Shown: positions 13,514-60,570 of the stretch, piece by piece
Layout: each line of letters begins with the position of its first letter
Numbering within the stretch: position 1 is the stretch's first letter
NCBI RefSeq assembly: GCF_014696355.1
Contig: NZ_JACJQA010000025.1
Coordinates: forward strand, 1-64,000
Direction: 5' to 3'
Length of the DNA: 64,000 nucleotides
Source: Pseudanabaena sp. FACHB-1998
GTDB lineage: Bacteria; Cyanobacteriota; Cyanobacteriia; Pseudanabaenales; Pseudanabaenaceae
Made by a program: the position numbers and the translations under genes
Notes under the pieces: generated by a model
Database searches by the model: none
Told to the model about the DNA's origin: nothing
The model's input: only the letters and a program-made list of their open reading frames with translations

Positions 13514-14497
13514 ATGAGTTTATTACGGCAAATCCAAGATGCTACAGTTGACCCTAAGTATCAGTTGGCAGATATTCTACGAATGTGTAAAATTCTTGCT
13601 GCACGTTTAGGAAATAAAGCTTTCAAAGAATGGATCGAACAAGAGTTGAATGGCTACAAAGACCAAGAAAAGATACCAAGTTATAGAGTTTTGGAAAACT
13701 TACAGCATTTTGGCGATTTCATTAGTATTTATGGTCAACTATGGGAAAATCTTCAGATTCCTTTGATAGCTATAGCTAAAGAGAATAGAAAAATACTAGA
13801 AAAGAGATATCTTTCGCGTAGTGTTAGTCACTATGAGTATAGTGTTATTAAAACAAACCAACTTTCAAGAGACTCTGTTCAAATATATTGGGAAGCAGAT
13901 ACTGTTTGCCAATTAAGTATTTATGAAAACATGAACTGCTTGCGTGCATGGACTCTCATCCCTATTTCTGCAATAGTAATAGTTCTTGATGCTATAAAAA
14001 CTAGAATTTTAGACTTTGTAATTGAGATTGAGGCTGAAAATCCTAATGCTGGAGATGCTTTGCCACATGAAAAACTAATTCCCGATCAAATCGTCAATAA
14101 TATTTACTTCAAATGTATCCTACACGAAAATCAAATGACAGAAAACTACACTAATACTTTTCAAGGCGCACCTATCGCTAACTTTGCTAACACAGTCAAA
14201 GATAACGCACGGCAACAGGCAAATCAACATATCCATTTATCTGAGGAAAAAAGGACTCTTGCAGAAGCTGCCAACGAAATCCAACAACTCATCCAACTTT
14301 TAGAAAAAACGAATCCAACCGCCACCGAAGCTGAAACCATTGCTTATATTAATGACGAAACCAAGCCTAGCTTCAAACGTCGTGCAAGTAGTGCATTACA
14401 GTCAATTGGAGAAACAGCAATTGACGAGTTTATATTAGAGAACAAGTATCTTAAAGTTGTGAAAGCTGCTATCAAGGGTTGGGTAAAGCCAGTCTAG
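13514..14497 (+). CDS. AbiTii-domain protein
   Basis: A 327-residue soluble protein. Residues 1-60 match the AbiTii domain pattern: SLLRQIQDATVD, LADILRMCKILAARLG, FKEWIEQELNGY and PSYRVL. AbiTii domains are associated with abortive-infection phage defence. The C-terminal 100 residues (NFANTVKDNARQQANQHI, then a helical segment ending in KVVKAAIKGWVKP) look like a separate helical module of the kind found in predicted conflict proteins. The gene has lower GC than its neighbours and no GCGATCGC. ATG start at 13514. Confidence 0.7.
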   Translation: MSLLRQIQDATVDPKYQLADILRMCKILAARLGNKAFKEWIEQELNGYKDQEKIPSYRVLENLQHFGDFISIYGQLWENLQIPLIAIAKENRKILEKRYLSRSVSHYEYSVIKTNQLSRDSVQIYWEADTVCQLSIYENMNCLRAWTLIPISAIVIVLDAIKTRILDFVIEIEAENPNAGDALPHEKLIPDQIVNNIYFKCILHENQMTENYTNTFQGAPIANFANTVKDNARQQANQHIHLSEEKRTLAEAANEIQQLIQLLEKTNPTATEAETIAYINDETKPSFKRRASSALQSIGETAIDEFILENKYLKVVKAAIKGWVKPV

Positions 14498-14581: not shown

Positions 14582-14989
14582 ATGGCTGAAACAGTTGTTT
14601 TGCAAATACCAGAAGCATTGTACCAACGCTTAGCGATCGCGGCAGGGGCAACACAGCGATCGCTAGAAGACGTGATTTTACAAGCCCTGCAAATTGGTAG
14701 TCCGCCAACATGGAAAGACGTACCCGAAGAATTTCAAACCGATCTTGCTAGCTTAGATCGACTTGACGACAACTCACTTTGGCAAATCGCTAATAGTAAA
14801 AAAACGCCTCTAGAAATGGAACGTTATGATTTTCTATTGACCAAAAAACAGGAGATAGAACTTACTGATTCTGAAAAACTAGAACTAGAGCAACTTCGTA
14901 CAGATAGCGATCACTTCATGTTACGCAAATCCCAAGCCGCCGCAATCCTCAAATGGCGCGGACATAACGTTGCGAGACTAGCAGGGTAA
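14582..14989 (+). CDS. Helical small protein coupled to HNH endonuclease, copy 1
   Basis: A 135-residue protein: N-terminal helix pattern AETVVLQIPEALYQRLAIAA followed by SLEDVILQAL, reminiscent of antitoxin DNA-binding N-termini, and a C-terminal charged helix FLLTKKQEIELTDSEKLELE. It ends 6 bp before the HNH gene, so they are probably translated together. Its ER...LL.K..E..LT..E..EL signature also occurs in the protein upstream of the second HNH gene at 55751-56053. Function unknown; an antitoxin or immunity-like role is possible. Confidence 0.65.
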   Translation: MAETVVLQIPEALYQRLAIAAGATQRSLEDVILQALQIGSPPTWKDVPEEFQTDLASLDRLDDNSLWQIANSKKTPLEMERYDFLLTKKQEIELTDSEKLELEQLRTDSDHFMLRKSQAAAILKWRGHNVARLAG

Positions 14990-14995
14990 ATATCT

Positions 14996-15421
14996 GTGTC
15001 AGCTTATATTTCCCAAAATCTGCGATCGCAAATAGAATCAATTGACCGTAAACGTTGCTGCTATTGCCTCACAACTGAAACCAATAGCGGTATGCCTATG
15101 ACAATTGATCATATTCAACCAACTTCTAAGGGAGGACTAAATACGATTGAGAATTTATGCCTTGCTTGTCGCACTTGTAATGAATACAAATCTGATACTA
15201 CCGAAGCGATCGATCCTCTAACAAATCAACTAATTCTATTATTCAATCCTCGTCAACACAACTGGCAAGAACATTTTCAATGGAGTAACGATGCTTCTCA
15301 CATCGAAGGATTAACAGCAATTGGACGGGCAACCGCGATCGCCTTGCGAATGAATAATCCCGTAATTGTGGCTACTCGTAAACGATGGTTTTCAATTGGC
15401 TGGCATCCCCCAGAAAATTGA
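14996..15421 (+). CDS. HNH endonuclease family protein, copy 1
   Basis: A 141-residue protein with zinc-binding CCYC, the catalytic DHIQPTSKGG, N in NLCLACRTCNEYK and a second CxxC pair, i.e. a complete HNH nuclease core. The C-terminal half shares FNPR..W..HF.WS and the GRAT segment with the HNH protein at 55324-55761. The start is GTG at 14996, six bases after the upstream stop. Target DNA is unknown. Confidence 0.88.
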   Translation: MSAYISQNLRSQIESIDRKRCCYCLTTETNSGMPMTIDHIQPTSKGGLNTIENLCLACRTCNEYKSDTTEAIDPLTNQLILLFNPRQHNWQEHFQWSNDASHIEGLTAIGRATAIALRMNNPVIVATRKRWFSIGWHPPEN

Positions 15422-55103: not shown

Positions 55104-55313
55104 TTAAATATTACTTAGTCTTGCAGCGCGATTTGGAATTGTCTTATTTTCTGCTTTTGCGGCTTCTAACCATGCGGTTTTAGCAAGAATTACTTCATTG
55201 AGTGCTTGCTGTGGTGTGTTGGCGATCGCTGAGCAATATTTTAAGTCAGGGATATCGGCAATATAGGCTTCATCTTCTTCGCTGTAGAAGATATTGATGT
55301 GATAGTCTTTCAT
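55104..55313 (-). CDS. HicB-like antitoxin-type protein, orphan
   Basis: A 69-residue protein with the HicB fold signature YHINIFYSEEDEAYIADIPD, YCSAIANTPQQALNEVILAK and a basic tail. HicB antitoxins normally pair with HicA toxins, but no hicA lies beside it. The frame is open to 55343, but ATG at 55313 matches the family. It is 10 bp downstream of the HNH gene. Confidence 0.8.
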   Translation of the reverse strand: MKDYHINIFYSEEDEAYIADIPDLKYCSAIANTPQQALNEVILAKTAWLEAAKAENKTIPNRAARLSNI

Positions 55314-55323
55314 GGTTATTTTT

Positions 55324-55761
55324 CTACTCAATCGGATCGTCAATTGGCGGATGTCGGTTAACGGCTATATCTGCAATCCGAATGCTAATTAGGCGATCGC
55401 GATTACAGTCTAAAGCATTCACAGTGGCGCGTCCTGTTGGTGTAGTGCCTAATAATTGCAGTTTATCGTTAGACCAGACAAAATGATCTTGCCAGCGATC
55501 GCTACGCGGATTAAATAGAGGAGTTTCTATTTTTGTTTCGGGATCGATCGCAGTATTTTTTGTGTACTTCTGGCGATTGCAATGGAAGCAAGCAAGGGCA
55601 AGGTTATCGATATTATCTGTGCCGCCTTGAGATTTAGGCAGGACATGATCAATGGTAAATTGAACGAATTGCCATTTTTCCACAGCATGGCAGTATTCGC
55701 ATAGTCCGTTTGCGCGATCGCGAACTTGAGCTTTGGTGGTTTCGATGAAGTTACGCGCCAT
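55324..55761 (-). CDS. HNH endonuclease family protein, copy 2
   Basis: A 145-residue HNH nuclease: CEYC, TIDHVLPKSQGGTDNIDN, ACFHCNRQK and the C-terminal FNPRSDRWQDHFVWS and TGRATVNAL segments shared with the HNH protein at 14996-15421. Its ATG overlaps the upstream gene by 11 bp (ATGGCGCGTAA). The two HNH genes have about 145 residues each and the same domain order, so they are paralogues. Confidence 0.88.
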   Translation of the reverse strand: MARNFIETTKAQVRDRANGLCEYCHAVEKWQFVQFTIDHVLPKSQGGTDNIDNLALACFHCNRQKYTKNTAIDPETKIETPLFNPRSDRWQDHFVWSNDKLQLLGTTPTGRATVNALDCNRDRLISIRIADIAVNRHPPIDDPIE

Positions 55762-56053
55762 GTTGGATTTCTGGCTGAGTTTTGGCGATGTTTTCGAGTA
55801 GGAAGTTATTGCGAATCATCCGATTTACAAAACTGAGATAGTCATCGATCGCGGCAAAGTCGTCTAGTTCTTGTTCTTCTATTTCAGTGAGTGGGGTTTC
55901 TTCGCGTTTGTCGAGTAGATTCTCGATACGTTCTTGGATATTTTGCGAAGCGCGAAAGATCATTACTCCGTCTTGTAGGGTTATAGCGATCGCGCCATCA
56001 AGGGGGAGATTTTTGGGTAATGTGGTAATTGGGGCAATTGTGGAAGTATTCAT
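55751..56053 (-). CDS. Helical small protein coupled to HNH endonuclease, copy 2
   Basis: A 100-residue protein: N-terminal strand-rich part (LPKNLPLDGAIAITLQDGVM) and a C-terminal acidic helix (RIENLLDKREETPLTEIEEQ then ELDDFAAIDDYLSFVNRMI). The helix shares ER...LL.K..E..LT..E..EL......D with the protein at 14582-14989, although the N-terminal halves differ. It overlaps the HNH gene, so the two are cotranslated. Confidence 0.65.
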   Translation of the reverse strand: MNTSTIAPITTLPKNLPLDGAIAITLQDGVMIFRASQNIQERIENLLDKREETPLTEIEEQELDDFAAIDDYLSFVNRMIRNNFLLENIAKTQPEIQHGA

Positions 56054-56074: not shown

Positions 56075-56479
56075 TTATGATGTCACCCAATTTTCAAGTG
56101 CTAGATCTTGAACTCGATTAAATTCTTTGGTGTTGTTGGTGACTAGGGTTAGGTTTAAACTCAGAGCATGAGCCGCTATGAGCAAGTCCATTGCGCCGAT
56201 AATTTTGCCCGATCGCTCTAGGGTGGCGCGGATATCTCCATAAATAGTTGCGGCTTGTTCGTCAAACTGGACAATTTCTAATGGGATTAGGAATTGGTTA
56301 AGGGCGGCGCGATTTCGATCGGGAAATTGACTTTTGGCGGCTCCATATTCTAGTTCGGCTACGGTGATGGATGAGATGCCGATATCAAAGGGGGCGATGG
56401 TTTGAAATTTTTCTAAAACGTCTTTGGGCTTGCGTTTAATGATGTAAATGCAAGTATTGGTGTCGAGCATATATTTCAT
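56075..56479 (-). CDS. vapC: VapC-type PIN-domain toxin
   Basis: A 134-residue PIN-domain RNase. Acidic residues are in MLDTNTCIY, ITVAELEYGAAKS and IGAMDLLIAAHALS plus VTNNTKEFNRV. VapC toxins cleave specific RNAs when the antitoxin is lost. It overlaps vapB by 4 bp (ATGA). ATG at 56479. Confidence 0.93.
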   Translation of the reverse strand: MKYMLDTNTCIYIIKRKPKDVLEKFQTIAPFDIGISSITVAELEYGAAKSQFPDRNRAALNQFLIPLEIVQFDEQAATIYGDIRATLERSGKIIGAMDLLIAAHALSLNLTLVTNNTKEFNRVQDLALENWVTS

Positions 56480-56709
56480 GAGAATAGATCCTCTCTTTCT
56501 TGTAGTGGAGGTTGTTCTCTGGTTTCCATGAAGTCATCTGAGAAGAGGTCGAGGCTATTCCAGAGGGTTTGCCAAGGATTGTTTTTTGGTATGAGAATAA
56601 TCGTATTACCAACTTTTTTGATATAGACTTCTTCGCCGACTAGTTGAAAGCCGTCTGGTAGTATGGCTAGTTGTTCGTTGCCTTGCATTCTGAGTTTGGC
56701 GGTGTTCAT
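56476..56709 (-). CDS. vapB: VapB-type AbrB-fold antitoxin
   Basis: A 77-residue protein starting NTAKLRMQGNEQLAILPDGF and GEEVYIKKVGNTIILIPK, the swapped-hairpin AbrB DNA-binding fold. The C-terminal NPWQTLWNSLDLFSDDFMET binds the toxin. It probably represses its own operon. Lies 12 bp after the NACHT gene stop. Confidence 0.87.
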   Translation of the reverse strand: MNTAKLRMQGNEQLAILPDGFQLVGEEVYIKKVGNTIILIPKNNPWQTLWNSLDLFSDDFMETREQPPLQEREDLFS

Positions 56710-56721
56710 GGGTTTGTTCTC

Positions 56722-59700
56722 CTAGTGGTATTCTAAGTTAATTCTTCTAAGCCAAGCTTTGACTTCATTTGTGAGTTGTTGGGTGCTTTTTTCTCCTATG
56801 AATGGGCGTATTTGGATAGACTCTGTTAGGCTTTGGCAGAGTTGATCGATCGCCTCATTAGCATTTTTGGCATAAAGGGCGATCGCTAATTTCTCGAAAC
56901 CAAGAACTCGCTTGAGGTTAATTAGTTCGCGTTTCAGGTTGGAGACTCGATTAATTTCTGGAATCTCGCGCCCTAACGAGTCAAAGATTTTGATGGCTAT
57001 TTCTTCTGCAATTACGTTAGGATCGCTTTCTTGTTCGAGATAGCGGACATCGACGACTAAACAGCGTATTTCGGGATGGTCAGTATTGCCGAGTGCTTTT
57101 TGGATTGCATCACAATCTATAAATTGACTCTCTAAAGTTTGAATTGTATGTGTGTTTACAAATTTAGAATTGTTTGATCTATTTGAAGAATGCCATGCTT
57201 CATAAAACTCTGGATAACTCATATTTTGGGCGCAATAAAAAATAGATTCATAGTAGGCATAAGACTCCAAAAGATTTTCTTGATTTCTCAAAGACTTATA
57301 CAAGTAATTTCTTAAATTAACTACTAAAGATAACCAAGGTTGTAATTCACCATCTTTAAGGATTTCGGGTAAGTTCCTTGCTGCAACTATCCGCATATTT
57401 TGAGACTTAGAAGAAATCATTACATCAATCACCCCCATTTTCTCTTCGTTATCATCATTGATATTATTAGGAATTACCAATAATCTAATTAGTGATTTGT
57501 TGCGTGTTTCTTCATCAGTATTGGGATCATTAATTAAACAATTAAGTCTGTTTATGATTAAACTTCTAGCATCAAAGTCATTATCGATTCCCTCTAATAA
57601 TTTTACTGCATGACTCAAAGCATCGATATCTGTAGAAGAATCTTCAATTATACGAATTAATGATTTTACAGCTAAGTTCTTATAATTAAAGTTAGTAACG
57701 ATCTTTGTTAAAAAATATACTGCACGACAGATAGTATCATTGTTAGTAGAATGGTTTTCAAGTAATTGAATAAGCTTATTTACAGCAATTTCTTTGTTTT
57801 GGCAATCTGTCGTAATGTTACACAAGCTGTATGCTGATATACAGATTAAATTATCGTCAGTAGTAGATTCCATTAAGTCAATAAGTTTATTGATAGCAAT
57901 TTCTTTATATTCCAAATCAGTAGCAATAATCCCTAAACTAGTGGATGCTGAGAAGAGGATAATATCCTCGTCATTAGCATCTTTGATTATTTGAGATAAT
58001 ACTTTTATAGCAATCTCCTTACTCTTAGAATCAACAATAAATTTATTTAAATTTAATAAAATTTTATTACGAGTATCTTTATCATTAGGATCTTTGATTA
58101 AATCAATGAGTGTATTTACAGCAATATCTTTACTCTCAGAATCAATGGAAATTTTTACTAAGTTTCTTGCTGCCAAATAGAGTCTTGATTTTTCATCTTT
58201 AGGATTACTTAAAATTTCGCACAAATATTTCGTAGCTAAAAATAGATTTGTATAGGGCAGGATATTTATTGCACTTTCATTAATTGATGGTAAGGGTATA
58301 GATATTTCGTTCTCTTCATTCAAACATCCAAATCCCCATTCAATAATTCGCTTAGTAATTAACTCATCCTTACTACAGTTTTTAAATTCTGACAAGCAAC
58401 TTGCAGCAAGAAAATAAGCTCGATATCCATAAAAGCTTTTGCCATTTACTATAGAGGAGTCACAGCATCCATCTTCAAAATTAATCAACGCCTCAATAAA
58501 ATCCTCTTTATCTTTCTCAAAACCTTTTCGCCCAAACCAAAATAAGATTACTTCACGCCATCTTATATCAAAAACTGGATAGTCATTACCTTTAAAGTTA
58601 TCTAATGAATCAGGCAAGAAAAATTTCCAATTAGGTATTTCTAAAGCTGCAAAATATTCCTTAAATGAGTCATGAAGGAAATCATAAACTTGCTCATATT
58701 CATCTATTGGTTTTAGCCATCCAAGTTCGAGAGCCTTTTCAAGCCTTTCACTCAACTTTTCTCTCACTTCACAATCTGTTAATGGACTTTGAGTATCTAT
58801 TGCTTTTATTGCCAGTTCCCCTAAAGACTTAACTAAATCCACATCAAATCGATCTTTTGTAATCTTCCGCTTGTACTGTTTTTTAATAAATTGATCGAAT
58901 AATTCTGCCTTAGTTGCAGCCAAAGCAAAGTTTGATTCGGATTTTTCATAAATTGAACAAAGCAATGATAGATGAAGTGGATATTTAATTAGATCGTTAA
59001 TGCGATGTCTAGTAGCTTGTTGAATTTCTAACTTGAGACCGTTTGCAGATTCTGAATCATCACCAAACCAAGCATCTATAAAATTACTGGGCTGCTCAGA
59101 ATTATAGCCAATACACTCATAAATACCATAGTCAAAACTTGCAAAATCTGCCTTGTCTGAATCCCATCGATTTTTACGACAAGTTAAAGCTATTTTAGAT
59201 TTGCTTAGCCAATCATCAAACTGACCGATAACGCTATACGCTCTATCAGAAATATCTTCAAGACCATCTAACAACAGCCAAACATAGCCATCTTTAAGCT
59301 TGTTATCAAATTCCTGTTTCCATTCATTTCTGTCAATATCAGAACCTTTAAGCCATTCTTCTAAAATATAATCCCAGATAGATTTTTGCTTGTCTCTTAC
59401 TTCTTTTAAAGAAATCCAAATTACAAGATTGTTAGGCTGTTTGAGCAATTCATAGCCAATTTGCAATAAAAGAGTAGTTTTTCCCGATCCTGTTTCACCA
59501 ATAACTGCTAATCTTTGCACCTGTTTCTTAGAGATGCTCTCTGACAAGTCACCATGAATAATTACATCAAGAAAATCCTGTTGGCGTTCATATTTTTGAG
59601 TAATCTCATACCCCTCAGCTTGCTCCTTACCTGATTGATCAGCATTTTTAGATTGCGAATTTTCCTTTTGTACCTTTTCCAAAAAGCCCAAAGGTACAAA

Positions 59701-60198
59701 AGTTCGATCAATATTGTCAAAATCTAGACGATTATCCCCTATAACCAGATCGATATTCCGCTTTTTCCAATGGTCTAACTTGTTACAACAAACTTCATAC
59801 CAATTACGGTTAGTCTGTTGATGTATAGAACTATCAGCGAATTTCGATTTCTGTTCTTCAAACCATTGCCCATATTGATCCTTTAACCATTCGAGCAAAA
59901 AATTTCTTTTTCTATTTCCCTGATTAACAAGTTCAAGACAACCATTCTCTTTGTCATTCTCAAAAATATCATAGGCTTGTCCAATACATTTGTTGTAATT
60001 TTCAAGACTGAGACGATAAATATCGGGATGTAAGACTTTTATTTCATTAGATTCAAGCCATTCAAGAAATTTTTTGTTTGAAATATTACAATTTTTCCAT
60101 GCAAATCTTGTCACAAAGATATTTTTGGGCTGTCCATTTATCCTAAGCCTTGTAGCTATATTCTCAAGAAACTCATCCCAATATTCTGGTGCAGTCAT
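56722..60198 (-). CDS. Large NACHT-domain NTPase with HEAT-like repeats
   Basis: A 1158-residue NLR-like protein. Residues 1-200 (MTAPEYWDEFLENIATRLRI onwards) are an unassigned helical N-terminus that ends in the motif RTFVPLGFLEK. The NACHT core has Walker A GETGSGKT (about 234-241), Walker B VWLLLDGLED (about 306-315) and YPLHLSLLCSIYE near 400. About six HEAT/ARM-like repeats follow (for example LIDLMESTTDDNLICISAYS). The last about 150 residues form an alpha/beta domain (IRCLVVDVRYLEQ, RELINLKRVLGFEKLAIALY). Bacterial NACHT proteins are phage-defence sensors; that role is inferred. TTG at 60228 extends the frame, but the ATG at 60198 is preferred. AT-rich and without HIP1 over about 3.4 kb. 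Confidence 0.82.
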   Translation of the reverse strand: MTAPEYWDEFLENIATRLRINGQPKNIFVTRFAWKNCNISNKKFLEWLESNEIKVLHPDIYRLSLENYNKCIGQAYDIFENDKENGCLELVNQGNRKRNFLLEWLKDQYGQWFEEQKSKFADSSIHQQTNRNWYEVCCNKLDHWKKRNIDLVIGDNRLDFDNIDRTFVPLGFLEKVQKENSQSKNADQSGKEQAEGYEITQKYERQQDFLDVIIHGDLSESISKKQVQRLAVIGETGSGKTTLLLQIGYELLKQPNNLVIWISLKEVRDKQKSIWDYILEEWLKGSDIDRNEWKQEFDNKLKDGYVWLLLDGLEDISDRAYSVIGQFDDWLSKSKIALTCRKNRWDSDKADFASFDYGIYECIGYNSEQPSNFIDAWFGDDSESANGLKLEIQQATRHRINDLIKYPLHLSLLCSIYEKSESNFALAATKAELFDQFIKKQYKRKITKDRFDVDLVKSLGELAIKAIDTQSPLTDCEVREKLSERLEKALELGWLKPIDEYEQVYDFLHDSFKEYFAALEIPNWKFFLPDSLDNFKGNDYPVFDIRWREVILFWFGRKGFEKDKEDFIEALINFEDGCCDSSIVNGKSFYGYRAYFLAASCLSEFKNCSKDELITKRIIEWGFGCLNEENEISIPLPSINESAINILPYTNLFLATKYLCEILSNPKDEKSRLYLAARNLVKISIDSESKDIAVNTLIDLIKDPNDKDTRNKILLNLNKFIVDSKSKEIAIKVLSQIIKDANDEDIILFSASTSLGIIATDLEYKEIAINKLIDLMESTTDDNLICISAYSLCNITTDCQNKEIAVNKLIQLLENHSTNNDTICRAVYFLTKIVTNFNYKNLAVKSLIRIIEDSSTDIDALSHAVKLLEGIDNDFDARSLIINRLNCLINDPNTDEETRNKSLIRLLVIPNNINDDNEEKMGVIDVMISSKSQNMRIVAARNLPEILKDGELQPWLSLVVNLRNYLYKSLRNQENLLESYAYYESIFYCAQNMSYPEFYEAWHSSNRSNNSKFVNTHTIQTLESQFIDCDAIQKALGNTDHPEIRCLVVDVRYLEQESDPNVIAEEIAIKIFDSLGREIPEINRVSNLKRELINLKRVLGFEKLAIALYAKNANEAIDQLCQSLTESIQIRPFIGEKSTQQLTNEVKAWLRRINLEYH

Positions 60199-60570
60199 TG
60201 CTTTGACTAGGAAATGGTGTAGACACAAACTATACCTAGTCTAACTACATATTCAAATAATCGCCAACTGGAAAAATTTTTCTAGTTAACTATACTTTTT
60301 CTGTGATGTACACACAGGGGGGGATACAGCAATATGAACTGCATAGAGATTACGAAAAAAGATCATGCAAACATTTCAAATTAGCTACCTACCAAATTTC
60401 GAGCCAATCCCAATCGAACAATGCAAAACCAAGCGATCGCGCCATCGCCTACCTCGCCCCAAATCTACAAGAACAATCAACTGCCAACAACTAGAAATTC
60501 CTTGGACAGCATAGGGAAACGCCCCTACACCAAACCAACATCCCTTCAGCCGCCAACATCGTTACAGATT
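60199..60570. other. Spacer between the NACHT and DUF4258-like genes
   Basis: 372 bp. It contains the NACHT upstream region and a 49-codon plus-strand ORF (60365-60514, starting MQTFQISYLPNFEPIPIEQC) that is arginine- and proline-rich and unlike any family I know; likely spurious or a scrap. No promoter motif stands out. Confidence 0.5.

Follow-up and report, generated by a model that had tools for sequence, protein, structure and literature searches.

A PtuB-like HNH protein and its small acidic partner form a widespread two-gene family, a candidate toxin–antitoxin family

Two gene pairs in the window

The window, i.e. the whole stretch of 64,000 nucleotides of Pseudanabaena sp. FACHB-1998 that was analysed, contained two gene pairs, each with the gene of a small protein (the partner) followed by the gene of an HNH protein (Table 1). 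The initial annotation had described both as translationally coupled pairs, and its coordinates, as well as the gap in pair 1 and the overlap in pair 2, were exact. The HNH motifs it named were present in both HNH proteins, which shared 39% identity over 139 aa (E 8e-34). It had also claimed a conserved helix for the small proteins. The two partners matched each other weakly (33 aa, E 9e-4) and were by themselves weak evidence for a common helix; a wider family was therefore gathered. Their N-terminal halves, noted as different, indeed belonged to different head types, ribbon-helix-helix-like (RHH-like) in partner 1 and 'LPLDGAI' in partner 2.

Table 1. Features of the two gene pairs in the window.
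Feature	Position	Strand	Description
Partner 1	14582..14989	+	135 aa, acidic, pI 4.9; proposed antitoxin with RHH-type head; 6-bp gap before HNH 1
Partner 1 head, residues 1–38	14582..14695	+	RHH-like; Pfam FitA-like_RHH E 0.0086, below cut-off; predicted helices 11–24 and 28–38
Partner 1 constant C-terminal helical hairpin, residues 76–125	14807..14956	+	ER..LL.K..E..LT..E..EL
HNH 1	14996..15421	+	141 aa, GTG start; predicted PtuB fold; H39, N53, four conserved cysteines, FNPR..W..HF.W, GRAT
Partner 2	55751..56053	-	100 aa, pI 4.35; 'LPLDGAI'-type head, unlike partner 1; C-terminal hairpin as in partner 1
Partner 2 constant C-terminal hairpin, approximately residues 38–85	55799..55942	-	limits set by eye
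HNH 2	55324..55761	-	145 aa; 11-bp overlap with partner 2

Copy number and distribution

The genome (4.78 Mb, 64 contigs) yielded 12 HNH-like matches, seven of which belonged to the family by score and length. The module had been reported to occur twice; both copies were real, and the number was an undercount, as the genome held seven, one with a broken HNH gene (an internal TAA stop, on contig C32). A small ORF (79–139 aa) lay directly upstream of the HNH gene in all seven. Two other genomes (G022 and G064) contained about as many copies.

A profile of the six intact HNH copies was used to search 146 genomes of the phylum. Some match was obtained in 125 of them, many to other HNH families; matches at E ≤ ~1e-22 occurred in 41 genomes, all among the 64 genomes of the same class as the strain (counted from the table). 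The 109 distinct family loci fetched all scored above 80 bits, one duplicate (L013) and one locus lacking an HNH gene (L014) having been left out. Twelve fragment matches fell outside these loci: two (G076) were joined as one place, one (G099) entered the 14-genome count described below and nine entered no count. A second set, from named genomes, was built with six HNH queries, five of them with RHH-type partners, and comprised the best 80 of 180 relatives. Its records included Chloroflexota, Desulfobacterota and Myxococcota, with Pseudanabaena as the nearest relatives; record titles with the family named Chloroflexi, Desulfobacterales (with Desulfonema magnum) and Sorangium cellulosum So ce26.

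HNH 1 matched 50 plasmid records, some via other HNH proteins such as IscB; 33 covered at least 80% of HNH 1, and 13 of the 50 were typed conjugative. None of 17 matches in phage records reached 80% coverage. Viral contigs gave six HNH matches, none to HNH 2, reaching at most residues 5–69 for query A4.

The HNH protein and its predicted PtuB fold

Among 99 HNH sequences, the four cysteines were conserved in 98–99, the catalytic histidine in 98 and the asparagine in 99. Searches of Pfam, NCBIfam, PADLOC and PHROGs returned generic or PtuB-like matches: the PADLOC PtuB model PDLC00337 matched the HNH proteins of the window (E 5e-12 and 1e-14), and the NCBIfam PtuB model gave HNH 2 14.4 of the 150 bits needed. 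A PDB search by sequence found the HNH domains of Cas9, IscB and Gme. The AlphaFold2 model (pLDDT 94.6) was aligned over its whole length by PtuB chains (Z 10.3 to 7.1), best by 9vh1_F (Z 10.3, 128 of 141 residues, rmsd 2.6), with the Septu chain 8eea_G at Z 9.8; among the matches listed, HNH proteins other than PtuB reached Z ≤ 6.0 with 63–93 residues aligned. Foldseek also placed PtuB first (TM 0.66, E 1.3e-3), with no match below 1e-3.

PtuA was sought beside the pair, and any one ORF family (at least 70 codons, within ~1.5 kb) was shared by at most 6 of 103 loci; the same bound applied to any recurring third component, PtuA-like or other. Since no PtuA accompanies the pair, it is not a Septu system. 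Nor do the proteins belong with IscB or Cas9, whose HNH domain goes with RuvC parts and an RNA guide: they consist of the HNH domain alone (141–145 aa) and gave 43–45 of the 175 bits needed for the NCBIfam IscB model. A polymorphic toxin with its immunity protein is unlikely, there being no delivery domain and the PtuB-like domain filling the whole HNH protein.

The partner: a constant hairpin behind exchangeable heads

The partners clustered in 16 groups; after merging, 11 head types remained, one with a single member. Their C-terminal consensus read Q.RL..LL.K..ag.LT..E..EL, with one leucine invariant in 103 of 103. When each head type was scored with a hairpin profile made from all the others, 99 of the 103 held-out partners exceeded every one of 2,060 shuffles, a test that is mildly circular in that the profile columns came from the joint alignment; the four failures belonged to types 3, 4 and 7. 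The common helix, doubtful from the two window proteins, was thus settled by the family: it is the C-terminal domain that relates the small proteins to one another.

The heads resembled known families weakly. Pfam matches to 78 partners were RelB-like (5), RHH_5 (3), DUF6364 (3), FitA-like RHH (2) and Phd/YefM (1), all weak, and curated antitoxin families matched few of the 78 at E about 5e-4 or worse. For the partners of both window pairs, Pfam, NCBIfam, PADLOC and PHROGs gave no family above cut-off. An RHH-like head was seen in one head type, with a weak Pfam match (below cut-off, see Table 1) and helices as predicted; the heads of the other types stayed unassigned. In the predicted model of partner 1 (pLDDT 89.8), helices 11–24 and 28–38 follow a short N-terminal stretch, the pattern expected of an RHH monomer, and are succeeded by helices 49–60, 63–70, 76–91 and 96–125. 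This model gave no convincing fold match, nor did the PDB by sequence. The C-terminal hairpin aligned with 3bhp_A of UPF0291/YnzC (DUF896) (Z 5.6, 52 residues; profile E 0.013), a Z below the level held meaningful for helical pieces; the likeness is probably that of a common arrangement. The partners were acidic (median pI 4.77, n = 103, 96% below 6) and the HNH proteins near neutral (7.7, n = 89).

In one own-genome copy (L002), the HNH protein was 69% identical to that of a locus in another genome (L016), the hairpins were similar and the heads were unrelated by eye, which we read from the sequences as an exchange of the head.

Parallel divergence of nuclease and partner

The distances among HNH proteins and among hairpins were correlated (Mantel r 0.79, n = 99), and 2,000 permutations gave 0.08 at most. 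In 98 of 99 cases an HNH protein and its nearest HNH neighbour had partners of one head type, compared with a maximum of 28 in 1,000 permutations. Confining the permutation to copies of one genome never yielded a value as high as that observed (0 of 5,000). Correlations within single genomes ranged from r −0.59 to 0.96. In five comparisons, dN/dS was 0.14–0.20 for the partner and 0.07–0.19 for the HNH gene; both genes are under constraint.

Pairing and one-sided loss

Co-occurrence of homologues of both proteins, proposed in the initial annotation as a check, was the rule. An upstream coupled ORF (at least 45 codons, ending near the HNH start) was present in 103 of 109 loci versus 3 of 12 lower-scoring control HNH genes. 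Four of the six remaining loci still showed the partner: L071 was cut by the contig end, yet the 3' end of the partner was visible; in L017 an intact partner lay 167 bp from the HNH gene; and in L019 and L023 an insert separated the two by 1.7 and 1.0 kb, respectively. Of the last two, L094 had its HNH gene at a contig edge and in L075 both genes were degraded at their facing ends. In the named-genome loci, a partner match lay beside the HNH gene in 79 of 80 and was open in 77. HNH genes elsewhere thus mostly kept their partner, the exceptions being L236 (an intact HNH gene whose first stretch is replaced and which lacks a partner) and L221 (an intact HNH gene, an in-frame stop in the partner). 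In L251 the partner was present, set against a 5'-truncated HNH gene. G109 (L026) combined an intact HNH gene with a partner whose in-frame stop comes late, past the motif.

Taking the loci found by their HNH gene together (109 + 80 = 189), 163 of 169 intact HNH genes had an intact partner. The other six were L071 (contig edge), L019 (partner behind the insert), L088 (by eye an open partner of 69 codons), L075, L221 and L236. The last three indicate that an HNH gene without an intact partner is rare, not impossible. Eighteen broken HNH genes accompanied an intact partner, versus three intact or nearly intact HNH genes without one.

In 14 genomes, partner matches of at least 30 bits, weaker ones being left out, were compared with HNH places, which were listed down to ~E 1e-12, so that weaker HNH fragments may be missed. 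Places were typed by hand; two split partner matches were joined, as were the two HNH pieces of G076. All 43 intact HNH genes had a partner, 41 adjacent and two separated by an insert; the other eight of 51 HNH places were seven broken genes beside a partner and one fragment without. Conversely, 39 of 82 partners lacked a working HNH gene: seven had a broken one and 32 had no HNH match within 2.5 kb among the matches listed. Of 33 strand entries for solo partners, 27 were open by script, and two of the other six (L159, L175) look open; four solo partners kept a 5' remnant of the HNH gene. Since the HNH gene is the longer and better conserved of the two, detection bias should run against an excess of partners. 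From this pattern of loss, the small protein would seem to keep the nuclease harmless, as in toxin–antitoxin (TA) pairs.

Two gene pairs of one genome (G103) served as calibration, both counted by eye. With DUF433/DUF5615, all 11 toxins spanning 75 positions or more adjoined DUF433, and 2 of 13 DUF433 lacked a full toxin among the matches listed, the same direction as for HNH and partner. With XisH/XisI, which to our knowledge is not established as a TA pair, none of 12 XisH and three of 15 XisI stood alone. Because this pair is skewed in the same direction, the asymmetry of orphans is not specific and is no proof of a TA system. As a side observation, XisI without XisH but never the reverse in G103 raises the idea that XisH/XisI may itself act as a nuclease–antitoxin pair.

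Cassette ends and dispersed 5' copies

The window and eight relatives had no common upstream DNA beyond ~6–14 bp before the start codon; L188 and L268 were the only relatives sharing upstream DNA (about 80 bp). The 110 bp preceding partner 1 showed no inverted repeat. For these reasons no operator could be named, unlike in classical autoregulated TA operons. In 64 pairs of modules with 90–99% identity, homology ended within 15 bp of the genes on both sides in 26 and on the upstream side in 32; in 38 it reached further on at least one side. The control consisted of 15 VapBC pairs, taken from the window and from five relatives; here homology stopped within 15 bp downstream in 13 cases and upstream in five, all five involving one copy (L336). 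Gene-exact ends are not special to the HNH/partner pair, as the control was similar at the 3' end. The boundary counts indicate that the two genes move together as a short unit, their upstream DNA being less conserved than that of VapBC, with no striking difference.

In relatives, the first 56–84 bases of the RHH-type partner gene were repeated in dispersed copies of 60–90 bp (L357 4154-7094, L358 to L376). These copies often contained in-frame stops, sometimes stood in rows beside a full pair, and in many cases ended at GCGATCGC, the HIP1 octamer. Twenty loci contained 36 partial copies. For 12 of these, no start of an ORF of 45 codons lay in the next 450 bp, and at least 10 stood, by eye, shortly before toxin–antitoxin genes. 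In four loci this was confirmed with Pfam, with DUF433-DUF5615, Gp49-HI1420, ParE, PIN and PemK operons starting 34–79 bp after the 5' copy. The dispersed copies resemble the repeated leader of cassette arrays; Rfam gave no match in three array loci.

A candidate toxin–antitoxin family and its alternatives

The HNH gene and its partner form a real, widespread two-gene family, which current annotation splits into an 'HNH endonuclease' and a 'hypothetical protein'. The initial annotation had been reminded of toxin–antitoxin or nuclease–immunity pairs. The first of these is partly supported: the pairing, the excess of partners, their acidity and the one RHH-like head favour it, and against it no conserved operator was found. 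A secreted toxin with its immunity protein is unlikely since the HNH protein is a bare 140-aa domain without an added N-terminal region. On balance, we consider the family probably a type II-like TA family, one undescribed in the open-access literature, with a stand-alone toxin of PtuB fold and an antitoxin composed of an exchangeable head and a constant tail. The acidic partner, encoded upstream, would be made first, and its C-terminal hairpin would hold the nuclease inactive; the head, of which there are at least 11 types, probably has a role in dimerisation and in DNA binding or stability. Once released, the downstream HNH protein, presumably an active nuclease of PtuB fold working without the PtuA ATPase, would cut cellular nucleic acid (tRNA or DNA) and growth would stop. 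We infer toxicity, direct binding, neutralisation through the hairpin and the role of the head. Several results speak against this reading: the intact or nearly intact HNH genes of L075, L221 and L236 without an intact partner, the late stop in the G109 partner, the weak matches to curated antitoxin families, the wide range of single-genome correlations, the upstream DNA that differs among relatives, the like asymmetry of XisH/XisI and the published harmlessness of retron-Eco7 PtuB without PtuA (PMC11555353).

Type II systems such as FitAB, VapBC and ParDE share the antitoxin-first two-gene operon, the acidic partner and the orphan partners, and some heads here weakly match RHH, RelB-like or Phd/YefM families. 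The gene order with coupling (103 of 109 loci) and the rarity of an HNH gene kept without its partner agree with this assignment. In contrast to those systems, the toxin would be a PtuB-fold HNH protein rather than PIN, RelE or MazF, the constant hairpin belongs to no curated family, and no common operator was found. Colicins E7 and E9 with their Im proteins likewise combine an HNH nuclease with an adjacent neutralising protein. The same holds for polymorphic-toxin HNH domains with Imm proteins, as described in part of PMC3482391; here, however, there is no delivery domain, the head of the partner is exchangeable and the partner gene comes first. HNH domain D51 of the NetFlax pair D29–D51 is also compared to PtuB, although the relevant passages of that study treat the pair as a PtuAB-like two-domain system and not as an HNH protein with a helical antitoxin (PMC10440598). 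In open-access full text, where most subscription papers lie outside the coverage, no title or abstract described the HNH/partner pair and 'HNH toxin' together with 'antitoxin' returned no paper; excerpts from the main text of a TA survey of Synechocystis 6803 do not mention HNH (PMC4963859).

The fold links the HNH protein to PtuB of Septu and of the type I-A retrons Eco7/Ec78 and Ec83, as the whole model aligns with it; it differs in sequence (~16% identity) and in having no recurring PtuA-like neighbour, with a small acidic helical protein in front instead. In passages of a study of retron-Eco7, PtuAB depletes tRNA-Tyr, PtuB is not toxic without PtuA, and Septu PtuAB is described as DNA-degrading (PMC11555353). 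According to sections of another study, Septu EcB88 cuts the variable loop of tRNA-Tyr, for which the H-N-H residues of PtuB are needed, and defence depends on the activities of both PtuA and PtuB (PMC13096335). With tRNA-Tyr and DNA as published targets of PtuAB, either tRNA or DNA is possible as the target of the HNH protein. The need of PtuB for PtuA lends itself to another reading, in which the pair is a two-subunit nuclease of defence or restriction type, the partner taking the place of PtuA as a subunit needed for targeting or activation and the head setting where the HNH protein acts. Heads that vary while nuclease and hairpin stay would fit this, as would the AbiTii gene upstream of the first pair and the NACHT gene near the second. 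We nevertheless judge it unlikely: loss of subunits should be less one-sided than what was found, namely many partners without a working HNH gene, mostly open, and few intact HNH genes without an intact partner, and there is no conserved third component.

Alternatively, the HNH protein could be a selfish mobile nuclease that drives the spread of the cassette and is repressed by the partner. The copy numbers in this genome, G022 and G064, the presence on plasmids, the dispersed 5' fragments in relatives and the 26 of 64 module pairs with tight ends on both sides (32 upstream) are in line with this. Against it, the other 38 pairs extend further, and VapBC, whose upstream ends are less tight (5/15), has similar 3' ends (13/15), which leaves such a nuclease quite improbable. 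An ordinary DNA-processing HNH protein with an accessory protein and no role in conflict would agree with the frequency of HNH domains in phage genes, yet the many copies, the patchy distribution and the common occurrence of loss and of pseudogenes speak against it, and we regard it as highly improbable.

Returning to the TA reading, a bolder version is that PtuB-type nucleases were freed from PtuA and came under modular antitoxins, each a nuclease-locking hairpin with one of at least 11 heads, and that in Pseudanabaena the antitoxin 5' end became a dispersed leader behind which other TA cassettes line up. We put this forward tentatively, being more inclined to doubt than to accept it in full. 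If the TA reading is true, it adds a family of PtuB-fold HNH toxins. PtuB-like activity without PtuA, in two small genes, would make the trigger and target of the nuclease directly testable. Natural exchange of antitoxin heads on a constant tail would be the converse of one neutralising domain meeting many toxins, as reportedly occurs in the NetFlax study.

Neighbouring genes

The gene of an AbiTii domain protein (PF18864, 5e-41; window 13514-14497) ends 84 bp before the first pair. Located upstream of the second are a VapBC pair with a VapC of the tRNA-fMet type (56075-56709) and a NACHT/STAND protein that also has a HEAT-like match (56722-60228). A HicB-like ORF on the reverse strand (55104-55343) overlaps the 3' end of HNH 2; such an ORF was found next to the pair in just 2 of 103 loci.

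On contig C59 of the same genome, an orphan partner overlaps the gene of a 438-aa protein, caspase-like by eye, by 4 bp (L154 1001-2688). This protein was rejected as a conserved link: among eight loci (L271–L278), its closest relatives (L272, L273) had no partner match. L271 is the same place as L154, and L275 has a partner and an HNH gene elsewhere in the locus.

On plasmid pSYLB of Synechocystis PCC 6714 (L270), the pair has cas genes on one side and an integrase on the other, and its HNH gene is missing from the annotation. On a conjugative plasmid of Nostoc edaphicum (L269), it adjoins cas1-cas2.
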